Part shown: positions 208 to 19,343 of the stretch, piece after piece
Layout: each line of letters begins with the position of its first letter
Numbering within the stretch: the first letter of the stretch is position 1
Origin: Schlesneria sp.
GTDB lineage: Bacteria > Planctomycetota > Planctomycetia > Planctomycetales > Planctomycetaceae
Direction: 5' to 3'
Length of the DNA: 64,000 bases
Assembly: GCA_028291515.1 (NCBI GenBank)
Contig: JAQGHU010000114.1
Coordinates: 1 to 64,000, forward strand
The notes under the pieces: model-generated
Databases searched by the model: none
Told to the model about the DNA's origin: nothing
The model's input: only the letters and a program-made list of their open reading frames with translations
Program-made: the position numbers and the translations under genes

Positions 208-474
208 TCATGGCTTAAGATGAAGGACTCTCTTGATTTCTTGCCGAAGCCTTTCTTCGTCAAACTCATATTCTTCACGGTCAGATTGAGGGTTATAGAG
301 GTCTGCAAAGCAAAAGATTGATGACAATGCTTCACTAACTTCAGGCGGGTCTTGAAGCAACCTGCCATCGTCCCTCTCACTCTTCCAGCAGCTGATGAAG
401 TCGTTTGCGAAATCGACTGCTGACATATTTCCGTCCGCAAACTTCCTCGCAAGAACAGTTAGATCGTGGCTCAT
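208..474 (-). CDS. Colicin-D-type immunity protein (bacterial self-protective colicin-like immunity family), 88 aa from the internal ATG
   Basis: Seen: ORF 208..534 contains internal ATG (cat at 472-474) giving [37 protein letters not shown]...; this ATG overlaps the toxin stop (ATGA, 474-471). Small acidic protein with the 'F..G.isa.dF...fi..W..er' pattern of colicin-D-type immunity proteins, directly downstream of a colicin-D-like toxin tip. Confidence 0.75.
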   Translation of the reverse strand: MSHDLTVLARKFADGNMSAVDFANDFISCWKSERDDGRLLQDPPEVSEALSSIFCFADLYNPQSDREEYEFDEERLRQEIKRVLHLKP

Positions 475-3400
475 CTTAGTATTCCATCCTTGATATATTT
501 CTCGAACTGCGGCGTACCGGGAAGAAGTTTCCAACCTGTGACGAAATTGCCGTTTTTGTCCAAAACGACAACGAGGTTCGTATTGGGGTTAAAAAACACA
601 TTCGAGTCTGGCACGTAAAGATAAGTCCCCTTCTTTATAGTCCCTGCATCATCCAAATGTGATGCGATGGCTTTGCCAAAGTCGGCAAGAGTTGCTGGGT
701 TTCGTTTGGGTGTCGTAATGCCGAAATCGGGGGCGTGTTTCCATTTCTTCTCCAATTGAAAAGTCCCAATCGTAGCCGACGCACTGTTTGGAGCGTTTGG
801 CGTCGGTGGCAGATTCAGATCATCAATTCTCTTCGTAATATCGGCAGCCGAAACGCCGTGTTGGACCACGTTTCCAGCATCGTCAACAATATCAAACGTG
901 CCATTGGCACCAGGAATCGACTTGTAGGCATTGTGCGCCCACAGCGTGAATTCCCATGATCTGTCCCCGACGAAGTATGTGTGGTGATCGGCCACCGTCA
1001 GATTGTACACGGCTTCGCTGCGGGTTGTGAGCGTGACCTTCTCCACGGGAACCAGCAGGTTGTCGTGGCTGATCAACCGGTCTCCAGGCTGCAGGTCGGC
1101 GGTTTTCCTCCAACCTCGCTCCCAAACGTAGAACGGATGTTCGGCGGTTGTTTCAACGGTGCGTCCGCCAACCCTCAGTTCAGCCACGAAACCGTGTCGA
1201 TGGAAGATCTTTTCCACGCGGCGGACAATGATTGGGGCATGCGGATTCAGTTCGTCCCTTGTCAGAATGTCGTCACCGACCTGGAATTCTTCGATGGGCT
1301 TGGAGCCTGTTGGCGTCAATAACGGAGTTCCGGCGACGAAGCAATTGTGGTTAAGAATGGTCAGCAAGTTTTCGCCGAGGTTCGCAATCGCTTTGGAGGC
1401 TCGCTCACCTCCGATGCCTTTGAAAATCGAACTCAGGCGATCCACCAGTTTGCCGACTTTCGCCGCCTTCAATGCGGCGCTGGCACCCTCCAACGCCATC
1501 CCTTCGAGGATCTCATAGGCAATCATGCCAGTCAAACGACCCAGCGCATGGGCAATTTCCGCATCGCTCTTACCGAGTTCACGTAGTCGAGCAACGAACG
1601 AATCCGCCAGTTCCATCACCGTGCTTCGAGCCAGGCGCAGCGCCAGCATCGTCTGCGGATCCACGCGGCCTTGCAACGATTGGAAGTCGCCACGCATCAC
1701 CGCCGCCCAGGCAGCCGGATCGAGACCCGTGACAATTGTTTTAGAGTTGTTTCTCACGAAAGTGTTCGTTCGGTCTAAGGCGAATTGCCCAGGCCCTCGA
1801 ATAGCGAACATAAATATGGTGGAGGGATTGTTCCAAATCCACTTCTGGGCTCCCCAAGCGAGGCTTGGTATTGAGCCGATGGATTGGATGGTTCCCCAAA
1901 CTCCATCCACGGCGAAGCCTTCCAAAACACCCGCATTAAATTTCTTGTTAAGTTCGTGTGCGTGAAGGAGCGCGCCCAATAGTCCCCAATTGTTACCCGT
2001 GCTCGTCCCGGATGTGGAAGTAGCCGGTCCCCCCAGCAACTGAATCCCCCCTCCGCCGCCGCGGTAAACGAGATCGTTGTCGGGTGACGCATCGCGCTTG
2101 GTCACATACTCCAGCGTGGTCAGGTTCGGGTTGCCGTCGAGGAGCGGGGTGACGACCCGGGTCGGGGTACCGTAGTCGGGAGTCCAGACAGGGGTGGGGG
2201 CGGCCGTCGTCCACTCCTTCAGTTCGCCGATCGCGACCCCCCGGCCGAGATAGGCGGTGGCCTGGCTGACCACGGTCGGGGCCGCTCCGGGCACGCGGGC
2301 GTTCGAATTGACTTGGCGGTAATTGTCGCTCAACGGGGTGTACAGCAGGTTGACGATTTCCCCCGACCCCACCTGGAAGTCGTACGACGACGGCGGGATG
2401 TCGTAACTGGAATTCTCCGTGTACGACGAATCCCCATAGCCGTATGAGCTGTGAGTGGTCGTGGTGCGGGAGTTCGACCACCCGTAGCTGTAATTCTGGT
2501 GCGCGGTGGTCCCCCCCGCCGAACTGACCAGGGTTTCCTCGTACGTTTTGGCGGTGCTGACCTGGCTGGAGGACGGGGTGTCGACCGTCTCGAGGGACTG
2601 GTAGCCCTTCGTCGTCCGCCGCGTGTACCCGGAGAACACCGTCAGACCCTGCAGCGCCGCCGACCCGTAGGCGGCGTGGACGTCGTACACGCGGGCCGTC
2701 GCACTGGGGTACAGGACCGTCGCCTGCCCGCTCTGCTGAGTCGACTCGATGTGGATCCCGTCCTGGTCAGACACGAAGTGGGCCACCTGCCACGAAGATC
2801 CCTCCCCCTCCCGCCGAGTCCATTCCGTCAGGTGATCCAAAGTCCCGTCGACGAAATGTTCGTCCAGATGATGCGCGCCCGTTGCGGCATCGTGGCTGTC
2901 GGTGACCAGCGAAAACGTCAGATTGTTCCCACTGAAGTGCAACCCCATCGTCGTCAGGTTGCCGCTGCTGGACGTTTCGTCCAACGTGTGGTCCCGCAGA
3001 CCATTGGCCACCGTCACCTTGTCCGTCGAGATCGTTTGAGTGTTGTAAACCGCACTCAGACCGATCGTACCGGTGGTTTCTCCGTCCGAAAATGACCCGC
3101 CCACACCCAGCGTGAACGACGTCCCCTGCGAGGTTACCGTCTCGACGTCGCTGTGATCCTGCGTCGTCTTCACGCCCTGTGCATCCACCGCCAGAGAACT
3201 GCTGCCGTACGCACCATCCGTGTCGACGTACGTCGCGGAACCGATCGTCACGTCGGTACTGAAGCTGTCCGCGACAGATACCTCTGTGGACTTCAGCAAC
3301 AGCGACATCGTCGACAGTGAATGTTCGTCCAGCGTCCAGTTCGCACCGCTGGTCAGCGTGGTGACCGGCGTGGCCGCTGTACCGGTCACCGACGGAGTCG

Positions 3401-6400
3401 CCGTCTCCGACTGAATCGTCGACGACGACGTGTTCGTGAACACACGGTCGCCCGATTGGATCAGCGTCAGCTTGTCCGAAGACCCCGACGTCGTCCCATC
3501 GTTCCAAGTGCTCGTTACGTTCAGCGATCCCGTCTCCAGGTTGTATGTCGACGATTGATCGGAAGTGTTGTGCAGTTGCAGCGTTTCGCTGACCGCACCG
3601 CTGGCCATCGTGGTTTGCTGGTCATCCAGTGTTGACAGCGCTTCGGTTGTGCCGGTTTGATCGTAGGTGTCCCACATTGTGGCGACACCATTGGTAATCA
3701 CATTCTGGAATTGTTCTTCCGCATGAGAGGTGTAAGTTCCCGTCGCTGCATCTGAAGTCGACAGATGATCGACCGTTGTCGGTGTGGCATTCGTCGCCAC
3801 GAAAGTCTGCTGGGTGCTGGAATGAAACTCGGAATCGTGAGTGCCGTCGTAATCGTACGATTGATCGGTTGTGGTGGACGCCTTCGTATTCCAGGTGTGC
3901 GCGGTCGACGTTTGCGTCTGATGGTCCTCGCCCGTGTCAGTCGCATCAGACCAGTCTCGGGTTGCGCCTGCGATCGTGTACGAATAAGCATCGGAACCGC
4001 TACCCGAACCACTGCCACTTCCCGAACCGGATCCACTCCCCGAAGCACTGCCGCTACCAGAACCAGATCCACTGCCGGACCCGCTTCCCGTTCCGCTTGT
4101 CGGTATCGCGACGACGATCAGATGCGTGCTGCTCCCATCAGTGGAAGTGACAGTTCCAGCAGAAGTGGAAACCGCATCCTGCGCCGAATCGGAAGTGCTG
4201 TCGAGCGTTGTGAAAGCGTAACCGTGACGCGTGATGCGATCGGTCGCTTCCGCTTCGCGGAGGCTAACGCTCTGATGTATGTTCGACGTGTAGGTGCTGG
4301 TCGATGTGGTGCTCGAATCGGCATCAATCTTGGTCGAAATTGACTCATCCGGCAGCAGATCCCTGATGACAGCGGACGTGCTGCTGGAGGTTGAGATACC
4401 CGCGACATCGTCGTCAGTGTCGTTCAAGATTTGATACGACGCGGCGTGTGTCGTCGAGATGCCCGGCATACTGCTGCCGTAACCCAGCCACGAGCCCAGC
4501 ATGCCGGGGGTCGAAGAGATGGCCGGCCAGCTATTAGGCGGCGGGGGGGCCAACATCAGCTGCTGCGTGGTGATGTTGTTCGCGTGATATGTGGTGTCGG
4601 AGTGACTGCCATACGTTGTCGTGCTGATCGAAGTCGACTGTGATTCATCGTGAGAGGTCTGCACGATCGTTGGTGTACTGGTCGAGGAATTGCTGCCGCC
4701 CACCACCTGATGGTCCGTTATCGCCAAATGACTCGTTCCGAGATCGTGGTCACCGTCGTGAGTTGCTTCATGACTCCAGTCCGAGGTGACCGCGTGATAA
4801 GTGGTCACGCTGCCGTCAGTCGCAGGCGTGCTACTGTCAGATGTTGTATGAGACAGGTCGTCGATTGTCGATTCGGTCGCTGGCGTCTGGCTGTCGTAGG
4901 TGCTGTCTAACGTATAAGTCAATACTTGCTGGTACTCGCCAGTGGCAATTGTTCCATCACCATTCGCATCGAACGGAGTTGAGATAACCAAACTGTACGA
5001 GTGGTCACTACTGCTGTCGGTCCAGGACGGCGTCTCGGACGAAATGGTGATTGTTTCGTCCCTGTGGTCGGATTCAAAATCGGTGGTTGACCCGGCGTTT
5101 CGCACATAGTCGAAACTCTGACTGGTGGTGAGTGAACTCGATGAAGATCCAGTCGAGTCGGAAGTGGTCGTATCGTCTTCCCAAGACGAGATCACACCCG
5201 TCGTGACCGACTTTGTGGAATTGCCGTAGCTGTGGTCTGTCGACTGCGATGAACTTGTCGCCGTGTCGAGACTCGTGGTGCCCGAAGTTATCAACAGGCT
5301 GGAATTGTCGGTTGAATTGAGCGAATGCAGCGTCGAAGTTGTCGAGATCGCTTCCGTGTCGTCCCCCGACGAGCTGTCAACGATCGTCGAATCGTAGTTC
5401 ACATTTCCGAGACCAACATAAGTTTCCAAGTCCGTTTCGACGGTATTGGAGGTGCTGCTCCCATAGGCGTGATCGCTGGACGATTCAGTGTAGGTCGATA
5501 CGGTACCCGCACCGTCGTTGACGCTGACTGTCAACCCCGCAGACGTAGTATCGTCGTAACTGAAATCATCGGTGTCGGTGTACTTCACCTTGGCATTGCC
5601 GAACTGAATGACCCAAGGGGCTGGTGCCGGAGAAGAGCCTGTCGACCCATTCGCCTGAGATGTGGTCCAGTCGGGATTAACGATCGAGATCCCGTAACCA
5701 TCCGCCGCGATCTTGGACGTCCAGTCATCCTGGCTGGTAGTGGCGCTTCCCTGGGTGGTGATGACGGTTCCCTGGGTCGCCGTGATGGCCATATTGCCGG
5801 TCGATTGTGACGATCCGTAGGCCGAGTCGTCATAAGTTGAAGTCGAATGTGCGACGGAAGCCAGTTGATCGCCGGTGACGTTGTATGTGTACTCGTCGTA
5901 CTGGGAATCATCCGACGTGACGGTGATCGTCGAGTGTGTCGTGACCGGCGTCGACACTCCAGCCTGGTCCACCACCGTGCTGTTGTCGGTCATATCGAGA
6001 TCGATATCGGACGCCACTTCGGATGCGGAGTGGCCGTACCCAACCAGGGTGTATGTTTGTTGTAACGCGGTTTGTAGTCCATCGACCCAAGATTGAGCGT
6101 AGTGGGAACCGGTATCCCACCGATCGAAGGAATCGCTTTGCGTCGTCGTTGTCGCAGTCGAAAGCTGATCGGCCGAGGTATCGGTCGTCGTGAGATGGAC
6201 GACGTTCTTGCCCTCCCATTGCGCGGTGTATTCATGCGACCGATCTTCCTCTTCGACCGCTCCGGCATCCGACGTTGTCGTGGAGTGATGGACATGCAGA
6301 TTCGAAATCTGGTTTCCGATGAGCGAGACCATTCCAGTCACCGATTCCGTCCAGCCGTCGTCGATCGTCGAGTTGAAATCGGGTGCCATTTCGAAGTCGA

Positions 6401-9131
6401 AGTGATCTTCTCGCGAAGTGGTCACGTCAGTCGTTTTGACCGTGTCACTGGGATGCGGCCCCGGTTCGATAATGACGACGAAGTGATAGGTGGCGTGCCC
6501 CGATTGATGCGCGGTGAAACTGTGTCCGGTCGTGTCGACAAATGTCGAATCGATCTGATACGTCATCTGGTCATAAAATTCGGAGCTGCTTCCCAATGTC
6601 CCGCTGGTGGTGTGGGAATCTGTGATGATCGTATGAACGGTCAATGTTCCCCCCAGGACGGCTGTCGTGACGGTCTCGTCTTTGGGTTGATACGCTGTGT
6701 ATGTCGCCGTCAAAACGCTGCCAAACGCATCTCGCTGATCTTGAAAAGCGGGCGTGACTCCGAGGTCATCGACATAGACGGTCGGTTGAACCGGATCGAT
6801 GTAGTACGTGGCATAGGCCAAATACGGCTGCAGCACCGAAGCAGCGTCTGTCGAAGGTCCAAAGCTCAACTGACTGGCGGAAGAGGTCGAAGATGTTCCT
6901 GCGGTTGTGGTTACCGTCACGTCTTGGGAACCGGTTAGACCTGCAGGAGCGTAAGCCAAAATCGATGTCGACGACTGCACAGTGTACACCGCGCTAACGC
7001 CGCCAATCGAGACGCTGGTCACATTGGCAAAATTCGTTCCTGTGATCGTGACCAGACCGTTCGACGCGGTCACTCCCATCACCGCAGGGACGGTGCTGGC
7101 CGCCGTGAAGGTGAATCGGTCGAGGCTTGAGAGAGCCGATGTTCCGGCAGACGTGGCGACGGTGATGTCCACTGTGCCCGTGACACTGGAAGGTGTGGTG
7201 ACGGAGATCGAACTGGAACTCGTCACGACGAAGGTCGCGGCGGTGGTTCCGAAGTAAACGCCTGTCACCCCCACGAAGTTGGCACCGTAGACGGTCACCG
7301 AGGTTTCACTCACCCCCGAGGTTGCCGAGAGCGATATGATCGAAGGGACTACCGAGTTGCTTCCAGAATTCGAACCGGAGCCAGAGCCGCTTCCGGACGA
7401 ACCTGAACCAGAGGTGCTTCCTGAACCAGAGCCAGTTCCGCTGCCGGAGGATCCAGAACCGCTGCCTGATCCCGACCCGCTACCGGACCCTGAGGTGAAG
7501 GTGAACTGGTCGAGACTCGACGTGGCGGAGGTTCCAGCCGATGTCGTGACGGAGATGTCCACAGTACCGGTGACGCCGGAAGGAGTGGTGACCGTGATCG
7601 AGCTGGAATTCGTTACGGTAAAGGTCGCGGCTGTGGTACCAAAGTAGACCCCTGTCACCCCCACGAAGTTGTAACCATAGACGGTCACCGAGGTTCCACT
7701 GGTGCCAGAGACCGTCGAGAGTGCCATGATCGAAGGGGCTGCCGAACCGCTTCCGGAATTCGAACCGGACCCGCTGCCACTTCCGGAAGAACCTGAACCC
7801 GAACCGCTGCCTGAGCCTGACCCGCTACCGGAATTAGAGGTGAAGGTGTATTGGTCGAGGCTCGACGTGGCGGAAGTTCCGGCCGATGTCGTGACGGTGA
7901 TGTCTACAGTACCGGTGACACCGGAAGGAGTGGTGACTGTGATCGAGTTGGAATTCGTCACGGTGAAGGTTGCGGCGGTGGTACCGAAGTAGACCCCTGT
8001 CACCCCCACGAAGTTGGAGCCATAGACGGTCACCGAGGTTCCACTGGTCCCCGAAGTTGCCGAGAGCGACATGATCGACGGTGCTGCCGAGCTACTTCCG
8101 GAATTCGAACCGGAGCCGCTGCCACTTCCGGAAGATCCTGAACCTGACGTACTTCCTGATCCCGAGCCAGTTCCGCTGCTGCCCGAGGTTGAGCCAGAGC
8201 CGCTGCCAGATCCCGATCCGCTACCGGACCCTGAGGTGAAGGTGAACTGGTCGAGGCTGAGCGTCGCCGATGTGCCTGCCATTGAGACGACGGTGATGTC
8301 GACGGTGCCCGTGACGCCGATCGGGGCGACTGCGGAGATTGTGTTCGCGCCGGTGACTGTGAATGTGGTGGCGACGTTACCGAAGTAGACGGCGGTGACG
8401 TTCTGGAAGTTGGACCCCGTAATGATCACTGCGGTTCCGCTGGGACCGGAGGTTGTCGAGAGTGCCATGATTGAAGGCGCTGCCGAACCGCTTCCGGAAT
8501 TCGAACCGGAGCCGCTGCCACTTCCGGAAGAGCCTGAACCCGACGTACTACCTGATCCCGAACCGGTGCCGCTGCTGCCCGAAGTGGAGCCAGATCCATT
8601 CCCCGATCCGCTGCCGGTGGAACCAGGCCCACTGCCGGATCCCGACCCACTGTTGGAACCGCTCCCTGATGACGATGTAAACGTCAGCGTGACACTGGCG
8701 GCGGACGAATACCCGAGGCCGTCGGAGATCGTATAGCCGAACGATTCCGTACCGGAGAAGCCGGCGGGGGGCGTGAGCACCAGCCGATCATGAGCCAGGC
8801 CATTGGAGGAGTTGGGATGCTCAATCGTGACCGAACCATAGGTTGGGCTGGAGACGGAACTGATGGAAAGCGTTCCCGACCCGGAACCAGAGCCCGTCGT
8901 ATCATTGGCCAGCACATCCAGCGGGACGGTTGTCGGCGAACCGACTCCCTGGTCGATGGTATAGGCATCGTTTACCGCCACCGCGCTCATGACGCGTCGC
9001 GGTTCGAGCACTTCGACCATCGCGGCCACACCGGACAATTCCGTGCGGCGTTTTCGCAGAACAGGAGAGGCTGTTCCCTGGAACGAGAACAATCGTTTAC
9101 GGACGCCAAACAGCCAATTCTGGATTACCAT
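471..9131 (-). CDS. Giant (2886 aa) LEPR-XLL/TIG-repeat surface protein with pretoxin region, Hint autoprotease and C-terminal colicin-D-like tRNase: candidate polymorphic toxin
   Basis: Seen: N-terminal [12 protein letters not shown]; cadherin-like [10 protein letters not shown]...; four to five TIG/IPT repeats ([37 protein letters not shown]..); (GSG)n linkers; long T/S/D-rich segment; Hint block [24 protein letters not shown]...[12 protein letters not shown]...HTYFVG...AHN; tip [29 protein letters not shown]...[31 protein letters not shown] resembling colicin D catalytic domains. Confidence 0.85.
474..929 (-). other. Colicin-D-like (tRNA-Arg-cleaving) toxin domain, 152 aa, C-terminal to Hint
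   Basis: Motif reading: [10 protein letters not shown] ... [11 protein letters not shown] ... [37 protein letters not shown]; adjacent immunity ORF supports the call. Confidence 0.75.
930..1343 (-). other. Hint (Hedgehog/intein) autoprocessing domain within the giant toxin
   Basis: Seen: starts at Cys codon (1343-1341) [10 protein letters not shown], contains GDxx[17 protein letters not shown], ends ..WAHN directly before the toxin tip. Matches PT-HINT organisation of polymorphic toxins. Confidence 0.85.
7030..8490 (-). repeat. Tandem TIG/IPT domain repeats plus GS-linker repeats inside the giant gene
   Basis: Seen: near-identical DNA blocks such as 'accgaagtagacccctgtcacccccacgaagttg..ccatagacggtcaccgaggttccactgg' recur around 7.24, 7.65 and 7.99 kb, with a diverged copy near 8.37 kb, separated by 'ccgctgccacttccggaa..cctgaacc' GS-linker tracts. 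Confidence 0.85.
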
Positions 9132-9786: not shown

Positions 9787-11862
9787 ATGCCCATGCCAGC
9801 GCCCGATGTGTTCGAGAGGATTCTCGATGATTTAATGCGGACGTTCAGCGCGCGAGGGGTCGCGTTATGGAAACACGATGGCGAGCAAGCTTCGATGCGA
9901 CGGATCGCGGCGCGCGGTTCCTCTGCACACGACCCCTTCGTCAGTCCTGCTGCAACCCAGCGCCTGCCGAACGAGTTCGCAATCACCTTGGCGGAAGGCG
10001 AACCGCGCTCCTTACGATTGACGGGACTTTTTGACGACCGCGAAACCCTGGTGCTGATATTGCCACTGTTTCAAGGGAACTTTCCCACCGGTCTGGTCGC
10101 GCTACTGGTGAATCCCGATCCCATTCATGATGATGCCGATGTCCTGGAGAGGTTGTTTGCTGAGTCATTGTCATTGTCACAAATCTTTTCGATGGAGGCG
10201 GACAACCCGCGCCTCGAGACGAAAAACTTAGAACGAGGCATTGGACTTTCAATTCCATCCCAGACTGTTGCGCGGCCAACTCTGATTGCGCCCGCTCCAT
10301 TCGAATTTGTGCTCAGTCTACAGCGAAGTCTGGACTTGGATGATGTCGCCAATGTCGTTGCGAATGACGGGCGCCTGTTGTGGGAAGTCGATCGTGTCAG
10401 TATTGCCGTTCGCCGAGGTCGCCGGGTCGACATCATGGCGGTCAGCGGCCAAGAATCCGTTCATCCGCGCGGAAACCTTGTTCGGCTGATGCGTCGACTG
10501 GCGGAATTGGTCGTAGCGACGGGCGAGGTCTTCCGTTTCGACGGTTCATCGGGCTCCGTTCCGCCTCAGTTAGAAGAGCCGTTGGCCGAGTTTGTCCAAG
10601 AGGCGGGATCGCGATTCATCATGATCGTGCCTTTGATCGAACCTGAACGATTGGTTCCGCCGGAGGCCCCGCCTGGACTGGGCAAAGTACCGAAGATCGA
10701 GCGGCGAGCGATCGGGGCGCTAATTATCGAGCAAATGGCCAGCAGCCAGCCCACGAATGCGCTGCAGCAATCTTTAGATTCGACAAAAGACCATATTGCG
10801 GCTGCGATCTATAATGCTCGAGCTTATAGCTCGATCTTCATGCTGCCGACCTGGCGGGCGATTGGACGCTTTCGCGAATGGTTGCGCGGGCGCCGCCTCG
10901 CAACTGCGGTCGCAATCTTGCTATCCATTGGTGTGTTTGCGATCGTGCTAGTGCTCGTTCCCTGGGAATATCGCATCGACGGAACCGGTCGATTGATGCC
11001 AGTTGAGCAGCGCGAGATTTTTGCTCCCTGGGACGGTGAAATCACAGAGCTTCTTGTCGCAGGAGGGGACCGAGTCGAGGTCGGCCAAGTCCTCCTGAAG
11101 CTTCGCAATGACGAACTGTCGACGGAACTAGTGACTCTGGAAAATGAGCTGCGCGAGAAGCGAAAGTTATTGGCATCCTTGGCTGCTCAGCGAGACGACG
11201 CGGAAAAACAGGGCAAACAAGAACAAATTGTCGAGATACAGGGTAAGTCCGTCGAGGCCAGGGTCGAGATCGAAGGTGGAACTCTGCAACGTGAAATTCT
11301 AAAGGAGAGAATCGAGCAACTCACCGCGAAGGCCCCGATTGCCGGAGTCGTCACGACGTTTCAGGTTGAACAGCTATTAATGCATCGTCCTGTGAAGCGG
11401 GGTGACGTACTTCTACAGATTATGGATGATCGCGGTGCCTGGCAGTTAGAGTTGGAGATCTCCGAAAATCGCGTCGGGCGAGTCTTGAACGCACAAGCGA
11501 AACCGACCGCTGGTGAAACACCAACCGGAAGTGCCGGTGATTCCAAGCATCCCGTGGCCGCCAATTCGGTCACAGCGTTGAATCGAAAAACGGACGCCAG
11601 GGGATTGGCGATCGAATATCGTCTGCTCACGCAGCCCGAATCGAGCTATTCAGGTTACTTAACACAACTGTCGACACGAGCCGCGACGACGGAGACCACC
11701 GGCACCGTATTGGAAGCACGCGCCGCGCTCGATGAGGAGAAACTGCCCCCCCATTCGATTGGAGCTGAGGTTCGAGCACGAATTGGTTGTGGTCCATCAA
11801 CATTGGGAGATGTTCTCTTTGGGGATGTCGTCGAGTTTGTGCAGCGATATCTCTGGTGGTGA
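9787..11862 (+). CDS. GAF-domain-fused HlyD-family periplasmic adaptor / membrane fusion protein (691 aa)
   Basis: GAF-like region SLQRSLDLDDVANVVANDGRLLWEVDRVSIAVRRG...FIMIVPL; single TM AVAILLSIGVFAIVLVLVPW; then IDGTGRLMPVEQREIFAPWDGEITELLVAGGDRVEVGQVLLKL (barrel-sandwich), coiled coil and KAPIAGVV. Confidence 0.8.
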   Translation: MPMPAPDVFERILDDLMRTFSARGVALWKHDGEQASMRRIAARGSSAHDPFVSPAATQRLPNEFAITLAEGEPRSLRLTGLFDDRETLVLILPLFQGNFPTGLVALLVNPDPIHDDADVLERLFAESLSLSQIFSMEADNPRLETKNLERGIGLSIPSQTVARPTLIAPAPFEFVLSLQRSLDLDDVANVVANDGRLLWEVDRVSIAVRRGRRVDIMAVSGQESVHPRGNLVRLMRRLAELVVATGEVFRFDGSSGSVPPQLEEPLAEFVQEAGSRFIMIVPLIEPERLVPPEAPPGLGKVPKIERRAIGALIIEQMASSQPTNALQQSLDSTKDHIAAAIYNARAYSSIFMLPTWRAIGRFREWLRGRRLATAVAILLSIGVFAIVLVLVPWEYRIDGTGRLMPVEQREIFAPWDGEITELLVAGGDRVEVGQVLLKLRNDELSTELVTLENELREKRKLLASLAAQRDDAEKQGKQEQIVEIQGKSVEARVEIEGGTLQREILKERIEQLTAKAPIAGVVTTFQVEQLLMHRPVKRGDVLLQIMDDRGAWQLELEISENRVGRVLNAQAKPTAGETPTGSAGDSKHPVAANSVTALNRKTDARGLAIEYRLLTQPESSYSGYLTQLSTRAATTETTGTVLEARAALDEEKLPPHSIGAEVRARIGCGPSTLGDVLFGDVVEFVQRYLWW

Positions 11863-11907
11863 CATCCGCATACTTGCTATCCGAACAGCAGTTTAAGCCA
11901 CTTAATT

Positions 11908-13854
11908 ATGCATCGGCTGACACGACTTTGGCATCTGGCGAAATCGAGCGGGCGTCCGATGTCCGCGCGTGTCTCGCGCTGGCGCGATTTAGCCCGACGA
12001 ATTATCGCCGAATCCGATCGATTGGTGCGTGAAAGTGACGACGTACTACTACGTCGCGCTCACGAATTGCAGTGGCAAGCAAGGGCCAGTGTGCCGCTTG
12101 ATCGGTTGCTACCGGACGCGTATGCGCTGGTGCGTGAAGCCTCGCGACGTGTCCTTGGTAAGCCGCACTATGAAGCGCAACTGATCGGAGGAATTGGTCT
12201 GTTCGAAGGAGGCCTGGCGGAAATGCAGACAGGAGAGGGCAAGACGCTGACCGCGACGCTGCCCGTTTTTCTGCGGGCACTTCGTGGACAGGGTTGCCAT
12301 GTCGTCACCGTCAACGACTATCTTGCCGAACGTGATTGCGAACTGATGGCACCGATCTACAGGTTGCTTGGCCTAACCGTGGGATGCGTAGTCTCATCCA
12401 GCGAACCACTTACGCGGCGACAGGCCTATCAGCAGGACATAACCTACGCCACCAGTCGAGAAATCGGCTTTGATTTCTTGCGAGATCGATTGAAAGCAGG
12501 GCATGAACTGGATGCCCAGCACAATCAGTTGTGTTTTCCTCCTACGAGGAGCGATGACAGCGAAGAGACTGTGCAACGAGGGCATCATTTTGCATTGATC
12601 GACGAGGCCGACAGCGTCTTGATTGATGACGCCGGAACTCCGCTCATCATCGCCCTGAATCGCGCCGAGGGACCGGCCTATGAGGCGCTGCTAAACTGGA
12701 GTCGTGATTTCGCACGGCACTTTGATTCCGGGAATGACTACGTTTTTGACCCATCGCAACGATCCATCGAGCTTACGAATCGTGGTGTCAGGCGGATCAC
12801 GCTGGCCGCGAAGCCGCCGCAACTGGCTACTTTCGAAAGCGAGAAACTCTACGTTCATGTCGAGCAGGCACTGCGAGGTCTGCTGGCATTCCAACGAGGC
12901 CGAGATTATGTCGTGACCGAGGATCAAGAGATCGCGATTGTCGATGAGGGAACCGGCCGCATCCTTGATGGCAGGAAATGGCAAGCAGGCCTTCATCAAG
13001 CGATCGAGGCCAAAGAACATGTTCCAATCACCGATGAAACTAAGGAAGCTGCTCGCATTACGGTACAGACGTTTTTTCGACGATATGATTATTTGGCGGG
13101 AATGACCGGAACGGCGCTTCCCGCCGCCAAGGAATTGCATCGAACATACAGTCTTCAGGTCACAGTGATCCCGACCAATCGCCGCTGTATTCGGAAAGGC
13201 CTGCCCACGCGAGTCTTCGTGTCGCAACAAACCAAACGCGATGCGCTGATTCACGAAGTTGTGCGTCTTCACGCGGCCGGCCGCGCGATCTTGATTGGAA
13301 CACCTTCCGTCGATGCGTCTGAAGCACTGGGAAGCCTGTTGGGAAAGCGAAGCCTGGAATGTCGGATACTGAATGCACTGTTCGATGAGCAAGAAGCGGA
13401 AATTGTGGCTGAGGCGGGCCAGCCGGGACGAATTACGATCGCCACCAATATGGCTGGTCGAGGAACCGATATTCATCTGCACGAACAAGTGCGCGCCTGC
13501 GGGGGGCTGCACGTCATCGCAACAGAACTGCATTCAAATCGCAGAATCGACCGGCAGTTAATTGGCCGCGCTGCTCGGCAAGGCGATCCCGGTTCGTATC
13601 AGTTATGGCTGTCGCTCGAGGACGAGTTATTTCGAAGCATTGCCGCTGCCCAGTGGCAATCGTATCGCAAATCGGCGAGGCCAGATTCAAGTGGCGAGCT
13701 TCCAGAATCGTGGCTGCGCGTCTTCCGCCGAATTCAAAAATCCATCGAACGCCGTGAGCGCCAGCACCGCAAGCAACTTCTGAAACAAGAGCGGACCCGA
13801 GAACTGTCGTGCCAATCAATGGGGCTGGACCCGTACCTCGAAGTGTCCGAATAA
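11908..13854 (+). CDS. SecA-like preprotein translocase ATPase, short accessory type (648 aa)
   Basis: GGIGLFEGGLAEMQTGEGKTLTATLPVFLRAL, VTVNDYLAERDCELM, GFDFLRDRL, LIDEADSVLIDDAGTPLII, GMTGTALPAAKELHRTYSLQV, ATNMAGRGTDI, RQLIGRAARQGDPGSYQLWLSLEDELF; only about 75 residues follow the last helicase motif, so most of the HWD region and the C-terminal Zn tail are missing. Confidence 0.88.
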   Translation: MHRLTRLWHLAKSSGRPMSARVSRWRDLARRIIAESDRLVRESDDVLLRRAHELQWQARASVPLDRLLPDAYALVREASRRVLGKPHYEAQLIGGIGLFEGGLAEMQTGEGKTLTATLPVFLRALRGQGCHVVTVNDYLAERDCELMAPIYRLLGLTVGCVVSSSEPLTRRQAYQQDITYATSREIGFDFLRDRLKAGHELDAQHNQLCFPPTRSDDSEETVQRGHHFALIDEADSVLIDDAGTPLIIALNRAEGPAYEALLNWSRDFARHFDSGNDYVFDPSQRSIELTNRGVRRITLAAKPPQLATFESEKLYVHVEQALRGLLAFQRGRDYVVTEDQEIAIVDEGTGRILDGRKWQAGLHQAIEAKEHVPITDETKEAARITVQTFFRRYDYLAGMTGTALPAAKELHRTYSLQVTVIPTNRRCIRKGLPTRVFVSQQTKRDALIHEVVRLHAAGRAILIGTPSVDASEALGSLLGKRSLECRILNALFDEQEAEIVAEAGQPGRITIATNMAGRGTDIHLHEQVRACGGLHVIATELHSNRRIDRQLIGRAARQGDPGSYQLWLSLEDELFRSIAAAQWQSYRKSARPDSSGELPESWLRVFRRIQKSIERRERQHRKQLLKQERTRELSCQSMGLDPYLEVSE

Positions 13855-13917
13855 CTTGTGAGGTGTGAACTACGTTTCGGTGATTGTGCCAGTCTGGATT
13901 CATTGCGAAATAGCTGG

Positions 13918-13937
13918 ATTCCCGCCTGCGCGGGAAT
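13918..13937. repeat. Perfect 8-4-8 palindrome ATTCCCGC-CTGC-GCGGGAAT, dRS3-like; possible bidirectional terminator
   Basis: Seen in 'agctggattcccgcctgcgcgggaatgacggaaag' in the short gap between convergent SecA-like and M50 genes. Confidence 0.7.
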
Positions 13938-14014
13938 GACGGAAAGCAACGACGCGGGATGGGTCAAGTTCCGTTCTGGCGATACACCCTGGCGCGAATC
14001 CGGGCCTAGCTCAT

Positions 14015-16240
14015 TCACATCCGGAAATGGAATGTTCGGCGGATGTATCGCCAAAGCCAACCGGAAGCAGAGCGACTTGTCACGATGAATCTTGCCGTCC
14101 CGCGAAGATCTGTTCTGAATAACTCAGGAGATTCGTTGAGGACAACGACCGCTTGATAGGCCGCATTCTGAAGCTCCTCTTTACCCTGTCGATCCGTCGT
14201 GGTCGGAAGTTGCCCCCCGTACTTCACCGATAGCGCGCCTGGAATGTACTCTGCCTGAGCTGTTGCGATGTGTGAGACGGTGCCGCGAAGGATTCGGTCT
14301 GGCAAGTGATCGAGCTTCAAGGCCACCTTCATTCCGACCGATACGTCATGGCGGTCAGACTGATCGAGATAGAGGATGGCCTGCATCGCATCGATCGGGG
14401 CGATGCTTAATAGATGCGTTTGCTCATCAAGCTTGCACCCGGTGTTTCTAGGGTCCAATGGAGTTCCTGTCCATTGGGGGAGCCGCAATTTCTGTTCTTC
14501 CAGTTTTGGAGACGGGACCTTCTGAGGACCAATGATGATTCCGCCGCAAGGAGCAACGATCCTCAGTTGACGCTGATGTTCCACTAAGGCGGCGAGTTCT
14601 TCCTCCACGGAGCGAAGGCTTTCTTGAGCCAACCTCACAGAGCTTGGATTGTCAGTCGCCTTGCCGAGATGAATCGCCTTGATCTGCAGCTTTTGTTGTA
14701 CGTTCAGTTTGCGGACGCGATCTTCCAGTATGGGATCGGACAGGATCGCCAGCAATTGACCTTTGACGACGCGATCACCCGCCTGCACAGGTAGTTCGAT
14801 CAGGTGCCCAGGGACTTTCGTATAAATGTTTTGAACATCTTTGGGCTCGATGGTAAATGCGGCCGATCCAAACCAGGGGACGGGGATCGTTGCGATTGCA
14901 ATGCAGATCACCGTCACGATGGTCAGGCTAATTGCCAGGCGTCGTTTTTTCACCGGTTTTGCACGTTGGGCGGTTATCATCAGATAGGTGCTTCTCGTCA
15001 ATTTGCCCACAATCGCCGCCACCGAAAGTGCGGCGAGGGTCTGGCCGATGCTCTGCAATTCGTACGGTTTCAGGACCGTGTAGAGGAAGGTCAAAATACC
15101 AAACAACACTACCCATCCATACAGTGTCGAGGCGATGGCGAAAAGAACGAACCAATGTCGTCCTGTTTGAGGCATGGATGGATCGGGGCGCGGTTCAGTA
15201 CCCAGCAATAGCCGTTCGATATATTCCTGCAGCAGTCGATCGGCTTTGGGTCGAAGATTGGGAATCTCTAGAAAGTCACTCAGGATGTAATACCCGTCCA
15301 GACGCATCAGTGGATTGGCGTTAAAGATCACCGTCGTGGCCGCGGTCACGAAGAACAGATTCAGGCACAAGTAGTGTAAAAGGCCCGGTTCTGTCATCCA
15401 CCAGACAAAGATCGCGATCGCGGACAGCGCGATTTCGATAATCATGCCGGCCGCGCCGATCAACATGCGCGACCATTTGTTCTTCAGCATCCAGGAATCG
15501 GAGACATCACAGTAGAGACACGGGCTGCCCACCAGCAACATCACGCCCATCTCATGACATTCACCGCCAAAATATTTGCACGACAGGCCATGGCCAAATT
15601 CGTGGATGATTTTGGCACCGGCCAGGGTACACCACAGGAAAATCAGGTTTGGCCAACCGAAGAATTGACTGAATGCTGGCAATCGACTTTGGAACACACT
15701 GAACTGGATCGCTAACAGTAGCCATGAGCCTAAGATGACGACACTGGCAATGACGACGGTTGCGGGATGAAACATCCAGCGCGTCCATCGCAGCATTCGT
15801 GTCAATGTCCTATCTGGATCCCACCCCGGCAATCGCAACGACAGGATATTTGTCAGAACGCCCCACAGTTGTTGTCGCCATTTTTTCCGGCGCTGCCCAA
15901 TTCGCGCGGCTGCCTGTCCGGGCCGAATGCCATAGACGAGCCCTTTTTGATGAAGGTCCGCAATTGCCTGCTGAATATCTTGTAGAATCGGGCTGAGAGA
16001 GGGGAATGTGCGAACAAGGTCATCGCGAATCGCTTCGATGTGCCGACGACCATCCAAAGCCTTCAGTATGCAGTATTGATCACCCCGTAAGCGATGATAG
16101 GTCAGTCCGATTGGATCTTTGATGACGTAATGAGTGACACCCTGAAAATCGATCGCCTTCACAATCAGGTCGGCGCGGCCGCGAAGAGGCACGGGTCGGT
16201 GCGACGAACTGATCTGCTCTGAAGGTATTGACAGCGACAT
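14015..16240 (-). CDS. PqqD-like domain / M50 (site-2-type) metalloprotease / HlyD-like fusion membrane protein (741 aa)
   Basis: N-terminal winged-helix PqqD-like segment (YVIKDPIGLTYHRLRGDQYCILKALDGRRHIEAIRDDL...IADLHQKGLVYG); HEFGH (15590-15604); second M50 motif NANPLMRLDGYYILSDF; C-terminal barrel-sandwich IYTKVPGHLIELPVQAGDRVVKGQLLAILSDP. Confidence 0.85.
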   Translation of the reverse strand: MSLSIPSEQISSSHRPVPLRGRADLIVKAIDFQGVTHYVIKDPIGLTYHRLRGDQYCILKALDGRRHIEAIRDDLVRTFPSLSPILQDIQQAIADLHQKGLVYGIRPGQAAARIGQRRKKWRQQLWGVLTNILSLRLPGWDPDRTLTRMLRWTRWMFHPATVVIASVVILGSWLLLAIQFSVFQSRLPAFSQFFGWPNLIFLWCTLAGAKIIHEFGHGLSCKYFGGECHEMGVMLLVGSPCLYCDVSDSWMLKNKWSRMLIGAAGMIIEIALSAIAIFVWWMTEPGLLHYLCLNLFFVTAATTVIFNANPLMRLDGYYILSDFLEIPNLRPKADRLLQEYIERLLLGTEPRPDPSMPQTGRHWFVLFAIASTLYGWVVLFGILTFLYTVLKPYELQSIGQTLAALSVAAIVGKLTRSTYLMITAQRAKPVKKRRLAISLTIVTVICIAIATIPVPWFGSAAFTIEPKDVQNIYTKVPGHLIELPVQAGDRVVKGQLLAILSDPILEDRVRKLNVQQKLQIKAIHLGKATDNPSSVRLAQESLRSVEEELAALVEHQRQLRIVAPCGGIIIGPQKVPSPKLEEQKLRLPQWTGTPLDPRNTGCKLDEQTHLLSIAPIDAMQAILYLDQSDRHDVSVGMKVALKLDHLPDRILRGTVSHIATAQAEYIPGALSVKYGGQLPTTTDRQGKEELQNAAYQAVVVLNESPELFRTDLRGTARFIVTSRSASGWLWRYIRRTFHFRM

Positions 16241-16309
16241 TGCACGAGCTAGCGGAAATCATCGTGAATTGTGGCAGACGTTTCGCGACACGAGCGACCA
16301 AATTGATCG

Positions 16310-17200
16310 TTAATTCGATTCGTGTACTTCGAGAATCATTTCTGCCGTGAGACCGGCGCGCAGAATATTGTCCTTGTTTCTGACATCTGCAAATATTCTC
16401 GTTTCGTGTGTGACCGGATCCGAGATCAAATCGACAAACGTGATCTGGCCTGAAAACTCCTCGCGTTCTTCGGGTAGATCGAGATCCGGGATAGAGAGTC
16501 GCACTTTCACCTTCGCTCCCTGTTTGGCATATTTAAGATCTGCCAAGTCGATGCGACCTTCAATACGAACGCGATCGGTATTGACGACTTCGACAATGGG
16601 ATCTCCCTGACGTACCGCTTCGCCTTTTTTTCGATAGATTCGCGCCACAACTCCGTCGAATTCCGCCAGGACCGAGTAACTTGCTAGTTCAGCGCGTGAA
16701 ACTTCCGCGGTCAGCTTGTTCAACAACAACTCATGCTCGGCCTGTTCAATCGACAACACGGCTTTTTCTGCTGCCAGCCTCAGCTTTTCTACTTCCAGCA
16801 ATGCGACAGGATTCCCTTTACCCGCGTCTGCTGCCTTCTTATTCGCCTCGGCGTTTTTTCGATACTCGGTTTCTGCAATCTCACTGGCTTTGCGATTAAA
16901 TCGAACTTCGACATCGTTGCCCCCCTTACGTTCAGCCAGTGACAGATTTGCAATGGCGATTTCATCGGCGACCAGGGCGACCTGTTGCCGCGCCTGGACT
17001 TGCATCCCCTCTTTGAATTCGACACTTTTCAGAATACCCGAGCGATCGCATGCCAGGACGACGTGATCTATCAAAACAATTCTGCAATCCGCGATGCGGA
17101 CTGAAGAGCGATTCGGGAGACGAGCCCCGTTCTCTCCGGCTTCGATAAGACCTGTCCCGAAAAACAAAACTGCCACTACGGCGACGCGCAGACAACTCAT
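16310..17200 (-). CDS. HlyD-family periplasmic adaptor subunit (296 aa)
   Basis: Signal peptide MSCLRVAVVAVLFFGTGLIEA; VEFKEGMQVQARQQVALVADEIAIANLSLA; VLAEFDGVVARIYRKKGEAVRQGDPIVEVVNTDRVRIEGRI. Confidence 0.82.
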   Translation of the reverse strand: MSCLRVAVVAVLFFGTGLIEAGENGARLPNRSSVRIADCRIVLIDHVVLACDRSGILKSVEFKEGMQVQARQQVALVADEIAIANLSLAERKGGNDVEVRFNRKASEIAETEYRKNAEANKKAADAGKGNPVALLEVEKLRLAAEKAVLSIEQAEHELLLNKLTAEVSRAELASYSVLAEFDGVVARIYRKKGEAVRQGDPIVEVVNTDRVRIEGRIDLADLKYAKQGAKVKVRLSIPDLDLPEEREEFSGQITFVDLISDPVTHETRIFADVRNKDNILRAGLTAEMILEVHESN

Positions 17201-17246: not shown

Positions 17247-19343
17247 TCACTCGTTGGATTCGGAATGTGGAATCAGACTTTTCGCTGGCAATTCAACAAC
17301 CTGATCTACTCTAACATCATCGTCCCAAGAACGCTGTTCGTACAGCATGGGGGTGACGTTTGGTGCGACGGATTTCTCGTCGGACTCGACGCTGTCGGGC
17401 AGCGGTGTTGGCGAGGAGTATTGTTCTTGTTGGGTGGCAGACGGTGCCGGTAGTTCAATATCTATGGGAGATTGGCTATTTGGCGGATGCAACGGCAAAC
17501 CTTCAAAGTCCACCAGTTCTATTCCATCTCGAGCAGCGAGGCGGCCCATGCGATAGAGCAGGTCTCGAAGTGACTTATTGTATTCTGCCTGACTGCGATG
17601 GAAGGCGATTTTTGCCTGTGCCAAGCTCATCTCGGCCCGCAATACCGGGTCGATGCCAATTCGCATAGCGTCCTGATATTCCGCAGTCGCGGCATCGAAT
17701 CGGCGTTGGGCAGCAGCGGCACGACGACGATTCGTTTGCATTAGCGCGTGCCAACGCTGCATCGACTGCAGCACCACGTACAATTCACGGGCGATTTCAT
17801 CTTCCTGCATCGCCAAGGCGCGTTTGGCCTTCACAACACGAAACTCGAGTTGATGCACTTGTGATCGCTGGCTTCGCAACCATAGTGGCACCGTGTATTC
17901 GATCCCCGCATTCCAACTGGTCTCTTTGCCGCGGAGTAGCGATGCGTAGGCGTTGTTGAAACCTTCCGATGTGATTCCATCGTCGGTTCCACCGGTAATC
18001 AGGCGTCTGCCGAACCCGTTCAGACTTCCTCCGACCACAAGGTCCAATCGCGGATTGGCGAGATTGTTGGCCGCATTGAGTTGCAACTCCAGGCTTTGGA
18101 TATTGGTCTTTTGTCGTCGAAGCTCGATTCGATTGGTCAGGGCTTCATACAAGCAGATCGCTCGTTGCGGCTTAATCTCCCGGTGTTCGGGTTGGGCACT
18201 CGGATAGAGGACCATGCTGTCCTCGACGGGCAGACCAAGTAATCGCCGCAATCTGGCTTCCTGTTGGAATAGTTGTCCCAGCGCCTGGTCTCGGCGGGCC
18301 GTGGCATCGTGGTAAGTTTCTTCCGCCTGGGCTTCCTCCGACTCGCCGATAAGTTGGGTCTCGAATTTTCCGAGGGCATCGTCCCACATTTGTTTCGCGC
18401 TATTCGCATTTGAATCCTCGGCCTCGAATTCGCGGAACGAGAGATAGAGATCCCAATAAACTTCTCCAATCTCGCGCAGCAGATTCAGCAAATTCTCCTC
18501 GAAATCGATTTCGGCAAGTCGATTATTGATTCGTGCGATGACAACACCTTGGTTGACGTAGCTGAATCCACGAGCCTGCTGAGAAACGGGACCAGCGACC
18601 GCCGTATATTGCCGCCCTGCCCCGGCCCATAGCGGTTGTCGAAACTCGGCCCCCAATGCACCTGTAAAAGTGGAGTTGAACAAGTTAGTCGGCGCGTTGC
18701 TGTCGGAGTAAGCCCAGTTTTGCGTGAGCGAGAAGATTCCACCGGTCATCAACTGTTGATCGAGCCGCGTTTCCGATTGGGTATAGTCATTCGTCAATAC
18801 GTTTCCAGACTGGAGGATCGAATTCTGCGCCAGGGCGTCTCGGCCGCCCTTCATCGTCACCGAGAATCGAGGATCGAAGTCGGATAGAGCGGCCTCGGTG
18901 CCCCGGCTACCAAACAGAACTCCGGTGTTTTGAATGCTTGGGTCGTAAATGGACGCGACGCCATCTGGATTGGCCAGGATGGGATTCTGGGGAGATAAAA
19001 ACTGAGCGTTCTGGCGAAGGATCTGATTGTTTTCGATCGCCAGCTTGACGGCTTCTTCTAAGGAGATTGCTCGCAGTTCGACTTGGCTGGGGGCCACTAG
19101 CGGCCGTCCCTCACCAAGTGAGACGGGTTCGGTCGAATCAGATGATTCGGGTACTGGAGCAGCAACCTGTTCCGCCAATTGGCGATAGTGCTCCACGATT
19201 GGATTGTCGAGGATTGGCTCGCCATGCCGGAACGCAGCGCAGCCAGCGACAATGCCTGCTATCATCAAGATAGGGATGCGCAGTACGATCGCGTGCGTCG
19301 CAATAGAATGACCGCCCGGCATTGATATGATTTCCAACCGCAA
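17247..19343 (-). CDS. TolC-like outer membrane efflux protein (OEP family), probable lipoprotein
   Basis: AISLEEAVKLAIENN...; EVYWDLYLSFREFE; IQSLELQLNAANNLANPRLDLV; WNAGIEYTVPLWLRSQRSQVHQLEFRVVKAKRAL; lipobox-like IAGIVAGC near the N-terminus. Confidence 0.82.
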   Translation of the reverse strand: MRLEIISMPGGHSIATHAIVLRIPILMIAGIVAGCAAFRHGEPILDNPIVEHYRQLAEQVAAPVPESSDSTEPVSLGEGRPLVAPSQVELRAISLEEAVKLAIENNQILRQNAQFLSPQNPILANPDGVASIYDPSIQNTGVLFGSRGTEAALSDFDPRFSVTMKGGRDALAQNSILQSGNVLTNDYTQSETRLDQQLMTGGIFSLTQNWAYSDSNAPTNLFNSTFTGALGAEFRQPLWAGAGRQYTAVAGPVSQQARGFSYVNQGVVIARINNRLAEIDFEENLLNLLREIGEVYWDLYLSFREFEAEDSNANSAKQMWDDALGKFETQLIGESEEAQAEETYHDATARRDQALGQLFQQEARLRRLLGLPVEDSMVLYPSAQPEHREIKPQRAICLYEALTNRIELRRQKTNIQSLELQLNAANNLANPRLDLVVGGSLNGFGRRLITGGTDDGITSEGFNNAYASLLRGKETSWNAGIEYTVPLWLRSQRSQVHQLEFRVVKAKRALAMQEDEIARELYVVLQSMQRWHALMQTNRRRAAAAQRRFDAATAEYQDAMRIGIDPVLRAEMSLAQAKIAFHRSQAEYNKSLRDLLYRMGRLAARDGIELVDFEGLPLHPPNSQSPIDIELPAPSATQQEQYSSPTPLPDSVESDEKSVAPNVTPMLYEQRSWDDDVRVDQVVELPAKSLIPHSESNE

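Follow-up and report, generated by a model that had tools for sequence, protein, structure and literature searches.

A fused RRE, M50 protease and HlyD adaptor protein as the probable client-processing part of a secretion machine for giant LEPR-XLL-type proteins

In peptidase-containing ABC transporters (C39/ABC/HlyD) a single membrane complex reads and cleaves a double-glycine leader and passes the cargo out of the cell by way of parts of the HlyD/TolC type. Accessory Sec systems employ a second SecA, SecA2, reserved for large adhesins rich in repeats. Secondary SecA_DEAD proteins with type-I-secretion-related neighbours were described by Kamneva, Poudel and Ward in 2015 from Planctomycetes, Verrucomicrobia and Proteobacteria; according to the passages of that paper considered here, the locus comprises SecA_DEAD, an HlyD protein with a weak M50 match, a GAF-HlyD protein, a further HlyD and sometimes an OEP, and contains no ABC transporter (PMC4452313). 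SecA was proposed to replace the ABC motor and the M50 protein to constitute the pore, and the biological role was termed 'completely unknown'. In a text search of that paper, neither a PqqD domain nor a giant client nor a leader was named (PMC4452313).

The daptide protease MpaP (family NF041824) consists of an RRE and an M50 intramembrane metalloprotease, as does part of the protein reported here; its removal of the daptide leader depends on the RRE, which contacts a short leader segment (PMC10036551). EpeP/YydH (NF058609), another M50 protease, is thought to cleave as well as to export (PMC10885120). Both resemble the present fusion in their HExxH and D-G motifs and in the leader-removing role that it may have, but differ from it in acting on small RiPP substrates, in having no fused HlyD domain and in being uncoupled from SecA-like and TolC partners.

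The window analysed is a stretch of 64,000 nucleotides from a contig of Schlesneria sp. On its minus strand a TolC-family outer-membrane channel (17247..19343, 698 aa, PF02321 E 6e-24) is followed by a periplasmic adaptor of the HlyD/RND_mfp type (16310..17200, 296 aa, identified by profile matches) and, as third gene, by the fusion (14015..16240, 741 aa). The plus strand carries a GAF-like/HlyD adaptor (9787..11862, 691 aa), whose GAF part was seen weakly and in the paralog only, and a secondary SecA-like ATPase (11908..13854, 648 aa); farther outward on the minus strand lies a giant gene of 2886 codons. The SecA_DEAD, M50/HlyD and GAF/HlyD neighbours at 9787-17200 constitute the same gene set as in the 2015 locus, as far as that source was seen, to which the RRE and the link to a LEPR-XLL-type giant are added here.

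The SecA-like ATPase comprises a DEAD motor with P-loop and a preprotein cross-linking domain and has no wing/scaffold domain. Walker A (GEGKT), MAGRGTD and further motor motifs are invariant among its relatives, the SecA scaffold domain being detected in just 1 of 23 of them, and the housekeeping SecA of the same genome is encoded on another contig (C97). Like SecA2 it would be a second SecA serving large repeat-rich proteins; unlike SecA2 it lacks the wing/scaffold domain and is paired with HlyD and TolC, and it reached none of the SecA2 cut-offs. Whereas C39 exporters combine a cysteine protease with an ABC motor, the window's system combines an M50 metalloprotease with a SecA-like motor, for a cargo of thousands of residues.

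The first-pass annotation had described the protein at 14015-16240 as a triple fusion of PqqD-like, M50 and HlyD parts, and all three were detected within its 741 residues at the positions it gave. A model of the whole fusion, built on 40 homologs (mean pLDDT 87), displays, in this order, a winged helix rich in strands (aa 19-104), a bundle of membrane helices bearing both protease motifs, and the adaptor. About seven membrane helices separate the N-terminal soluble domain from the adaptor, so that the RRE is predicted to face the cytosol and the HlyD domain the periplasm. The HlyD/MacA-like domain (14033..14890, minus strand, about aa 451-736) is recognised by PF13437 and superposes with MacA/MexA (Foldseek E 1e-12). 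The architecture is not a chance assembly, since matches, mostly full-length, occur in 67 of 297 Planctomycetota genomes and in many other phyla: within one gammaproteobacterial order 47 of 196 genomes contain the fusion, which is also present in Verrucomicrobia, Nitrospirota, Desulfobacterota, Spirochaetes and others, and a search with a single motif pattern yielded at least 599 confirmed loci. A Padloc search returned no match to a defence family.

Because Foldseek with the whole fusion matched the HlyD part only, the RRE domain (15917..16207, minus strand, aa 12-108) was modelled separately. The resulting model (pLDDT 94) is a winged helix of three strands followed by three helices (residues 42-50, 57-67 and 75-87). 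Its best Foldseek matches are PqqD (5sxy) and the TbiB1 and TfuB1 leader complexes (probability 1.00, E 0.003-0.02), the latter two being lasso-peptide RREs crystallised with their own leader peptides. A profile search of the PDB with the same domain agrees, retrieving PqqD (3g2b, E 0.0012) as well as the TfuB1 and TbiB1 RREs. The Pfam PqqD family (PF05402) matches aa 56-102 with E 3e-4 at 21.4 bits, slightly below the gathering score of 23.4 bits, and is matched by 19 of 40 fusion homologs (E<=0.01). Some homologs carry the RefSeq label 'PqqD family peptide modification chaperone'. The PqqD-like winged helix suspected at the N-terminus therefore has a genuine RRE fold.

The M50 core contains HEFGH at 15590..15604 (minus strand, aa 213-217), with H, E and H invariant in alignments of 24 and 40 members, and NPLMRLDGYY at 15287..15316 (minus strand, aa 309-318), the third metal-ligand region, in which N, D and Y are invariant or nearly so in the same alignments. 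Both motifs, HExxH and the downstream N-P-x-x-R-x-D-G, are located within membrane helices of the model, their residues are conserved across homologs, as established computationally, and the active site is intact in the window's protein. The daptide protease model NF041824 matches aa 47-411 with E 1e-54, at 185.9 bits against an equivalog cut-off of 300, a score by which the fusion is a relative rather than a member of the MpaP family. Since NF041824 matches 40/40 fusion homologs and NF058609 37/40, the closest named relatives of the fusion are, by profile, RiPP leader proteases.

The probable client in the window is the 2886-aa giant (471..9131, minus strand). It carries the leader motif LEPRRVMSA near its N-terminus (8982..9008, aa 42-50, by pattern match), contains Big_9 and TIG repeats and ends in a PT-HINT pretoxin self-cleavage domain (927..1316, aa 2606-2735, PF07591 E 1e-16) and a Colicin_D domain (525..758, aa 2792-2869, PF11429 E 6e-15). 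Adjoining it, where the contig begins, is a gene for a 108-aa immunity protein (208..534, minus strand, PF09204 Colicin_immun E 9e-18). By this domain order the giant is a colicin-D-type polymorphic toxin with its immunity gene. The 24-position NCBI model for LEPR-XLL (NF012209, now named LEPR-8K) does not match it, and LEPRRVMSA is accordingly treated as a variant of LEPR-XLL and not as a formal member.

A diverged second gene set, without a SecA-like gene, is found on contig C48 of the same genome, where it adjoins a giant of 7964 aa starting ...LRKLEERQVLNVTAV; both paralogous clusters thus adjoin a leader-bearing giant. Two more LEPRRVMSA proteins (L236:827-8197 and L235:15698-19540) are encoded on contigs C42 (TIG and PT-HINT) and C80 (TIG). 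They have the leader and the TIG body in common and carry other C-termini, one of them with PT-HINT. Beside giants of the C48 type a conserved protein of about 1,760-2,000 aa recurs (L237:1-5298, likewise in genomes G123, G208, G139, G107, G295 and G196), which in this genome represents a protein kinase that contains numerous WD40 repeats and has a zinc-ribbon-like N-terminal start.

The first-pass annotation had suggested that the PqqD-like domain may recognise the conserved N-terminal region of LEPR-XLL giants and present it for cleavage or export. NCBI's LEPR-XLL model alone being too narrow for this genome, a home-made leader profile (A5) was derived from giants beside the locus; as a phylum search with A5 is partly circular, NF012209 was taken as the independent test. 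Among Planctomycetota genomes with an NF012209 match (E<=0.01), 25 contain the fusion and 1 does not (Fisher p 2e-17); in the gammaproteobacterial order the corresponding numbers are 22 and 1 (Fisher p 4e-15). As to apparent cases of a leader without the fusion, G167 was rejected, its NF012209 match being internal to a frame instead of N-terminal; the giant of G484 is cut off by the edge of its 15.8 kb contig, and G020 and G201 are further such genomes. In the gammaproteobacterial order, moreover, 16 of 24 strong NF012209 matches are located no more than 60 kb from the fusion gene, where chance would place about 1 of 23 strong matches in fusion-positive genomes.

The leader motif itself was found near the N-terminus of neighbouring ORFs in 8 cases, against 0 matches in reversed sequence stretches and 1 in internal ones (1054 ORFs). 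Neighbouring giants were initially cut, their starts being obtained only afterwards and then checked for the motif, and in this prediction test the leader was present in 15 of 16. Examples are the giants of Pseudomonas sp. MMS21 TM103 (8679 aa, LEALEPRLLLSAD), Neptuniibacter caesariensis (7971 aa, LESLEPRLLLSAD) and Desulfomicrobium (6256 aa, LEVLEPRVLLSAD), as well as an uninterrupted frame of 14,389 aa with the leader MEQRFLLSA that adjoins the locus in Sulfuritalea (G306, joined from L225, L234 and L239). The sole leaderless start (G308) opens in mid-repeat, possibly owing to a frameshift or an assembly break.

On plasmids of several alphaproteobacterial families the arrangement is that of an operon. 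A giant that is LEPR-XLL by name or sequence directly precedes DUF3467, GAF-HlyD, fusion, SecA-like, HlyD and TolC genes in RefSeq, although not every gene is present in every operon. All six giants (6/6) carry the leader, one of them after its mis-set start was re-read upstream. The plasmid giant of Alisedimentitalea scapharcae (L286, upstream of position 325, minus strand) was at first sight leaderless, a reading that was rejected when LEPRLLLAAD was found in frame just upstream of the annotated start.

Three features of these operons may be recorded in passing. The small protein DUF3467, possibly an export chaperone, recurs directly after the giant in alphaproteobacterial operons (L283:12681-12977, L276:17836-18117, L278:17726-18046 and L284:11781-12086). 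A SapC-family gene lies at or near two plasmid operons (L275:22245-23066 and L286:658-1455). Genes at the SecA-like position bear the RefSeq name 'prepilin peptidase' (L275:23059-25083 and L278:22204-24120), which, judged by position, is apparently a mis-annotation.

Orthologs in genomes lacking LEPR-XLL proteins had been named beforehand as speaking against the link. Of the 67 fusion-positive Planctomycetota, 42 have no NF012209 match at E<=0.01; in the NF012209-negative, fusion-positive gammaproteobacteria, on the other hand, all four reachable neighbouring giants (4/4) carry variant leaders, namely LEARMMFDG, MEERLLYSA, LESRILYSA and LEKRVLLDA. With the home-made profile 25 of the 67 genomes remain without a leader, and neither model gives a strong match in roughly one in three fusion-positive genomes, of which some are fragmentary assemblies. 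Most Planctomycetota loci have no leader-bearing giant within 10 kb, and a single genome of this phylum may contain up to 23 NF012209 matches; many of the clients appear to be dispersed through the genome. The proposed link between fusion and giants is thus upheld by genome co-occurrence, operon adjacency and the prediction test. Taken as a link between a system and its substrates, the computed genomic tie of the fusion to LEPR-XLL-type giants is well supported.

The fusion is probably the inner-membrane part that reads and processes the clients of a machine secreting very large proteins with short N-terminal leaders of the LEPR-XLL type. Leader binding, cleavage, the succession of the steps and the kind of inner-membrane pore belong to a route that we infer from evidence which is comparative throughout. 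In it the leader of the unfolded giant would be captured by the cytosolic RRE, the M50 core or both, and the truncated SecA-like ATPase, standing in for an ABC motor, would feed the polypeptide to the membrane. The M50 site would then cut the leader near LE-x-R-x-x-L-(S/N/D)-(A/G), and the fused HlyD domain, two further adaptors and TolC would form the exit conduit. To our knowledge no M50 fold is established as a channel for proteins. In the window the polymorphic toxin giant is likely to be the client; its HINT domain would release the colicin-D-type nuclease, and the immunity gene would protect the producer. The SecA-like motor (11908-13854), the HINT/colicin-D end and the immunity gene probably alter the role to be assigned to the system here.

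Which part of the fusion reads the leader is a separate matter. With system and clients unchanged, the M50 core could read LEPR-XLL as a cleavage or docking site and the RRE could bind another leader segment or a partner such as DUF3467 or SecA, an arrangement that we consider possible if somewhat doubtful. In Mantel tests, all of which leave shared ancestry in, leader distance correlates best with the M50 core, with an r of 0.56 overall and of 0.46-0.56 in length-matched windows of 85 aa, compared with 0.42 for the RRE, whose alignment is short and noisy, and 0.32-0.43 for the HlyD part; the correlation with the M50 core persists after controlling for the RRE or the HlyD part (partial r about 0.4). 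No excess of leader-RRE co-variation over the M50 core was detected by this test. Since the leader follows the M50 core more closely than it follows the RRE, the RRE may bind something else. The motif, furthermore, closes in a small-residue site (SA, NA, DG), after which the mature repeats begin, and its tracking of the M50 core fits a motif that serves the protease chiefly for cleavage or docking. Besides the shared ancestry and the noisy RRE alignment, the leader contact made by the daptide RRE (PMC10036551) argues against this assignment, and as to the identity of the reader the divergence pattern is suggestive only.

The kinship with MpaP and EpeP/YydH allows a different substrate altogether: as the named proteins most closely related to it act in the maturation of small peptides, the fusion might process a small RiPP-like peptide or signal, with the giants as hitch-hiking neighbours in adhesin or secretion islands. 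This is improbable in view of the whole-genome co-occurrence with LEPR-XLL in two unrelated groups and of the plasmid operons, which in several alphaproteobacterial families start with the giant.

A secretion machine for giants, the reading preferred here, is also what the conserved gene set points to. At 80 loci across phyla GAF-HlyD was found 73 times, SecA-like 70, HlyD 54, TolC 22 and ABC 2 times; at 82 Planctomycetota loci the respective counts are 63, 28, 59, 18 and 1. HlyD and TolC are present as in type I secretion, while an ABC motif occurs in 3 of 162 loci by a crude regular expression. That the locus is an ordinary type I adaptor set with its ABC transporter encoded elsewhere and the M50 and PqqD parts as decoration is very improbable, for although its HlyD and TolC parts are typical and TolC partners are frequently encoded elsewhere, 159 of 162 loci are without a recognisable ABC gene by that motif test, the protease residues are invariant or nearly so, and a dedicated SecA-like motor is present at 70 of 80 loci.

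The secretion machine proposed above may perhaps represent a separate Gram-negative secretion class, a suggestion that we put forward tentatively. It would consist of a truncated SecA motor, a leader-reading and leader-cutting RRE-M50-HlyD protein and HlyD/TolC parts, and its cargo, polymorphic toxins included, would range from 1,000 to more than 14,000 residues and leave the cell without an ABC transporter or SecYEG in Planctomycetota, Verrucomicrobiota, Proteobacteria and others. New here are the link of the locus to LEPR-XLL-type giants and the identity of the RRE; the literature passages on LEPR-XLL that were consulted contain no link to secretion genes. If the proposal is correct, the exit of the LEPR-XLL giants, the role of the orphan secondary-SecA/HlyD locus and the fusion of an RRE to an adaptor would become one testable system. 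RREs would then recognise the leaders not of small peptides alone but also of the largest proteins that bacteria make, and polymorphic toxins would gain a further possible route of delivery.
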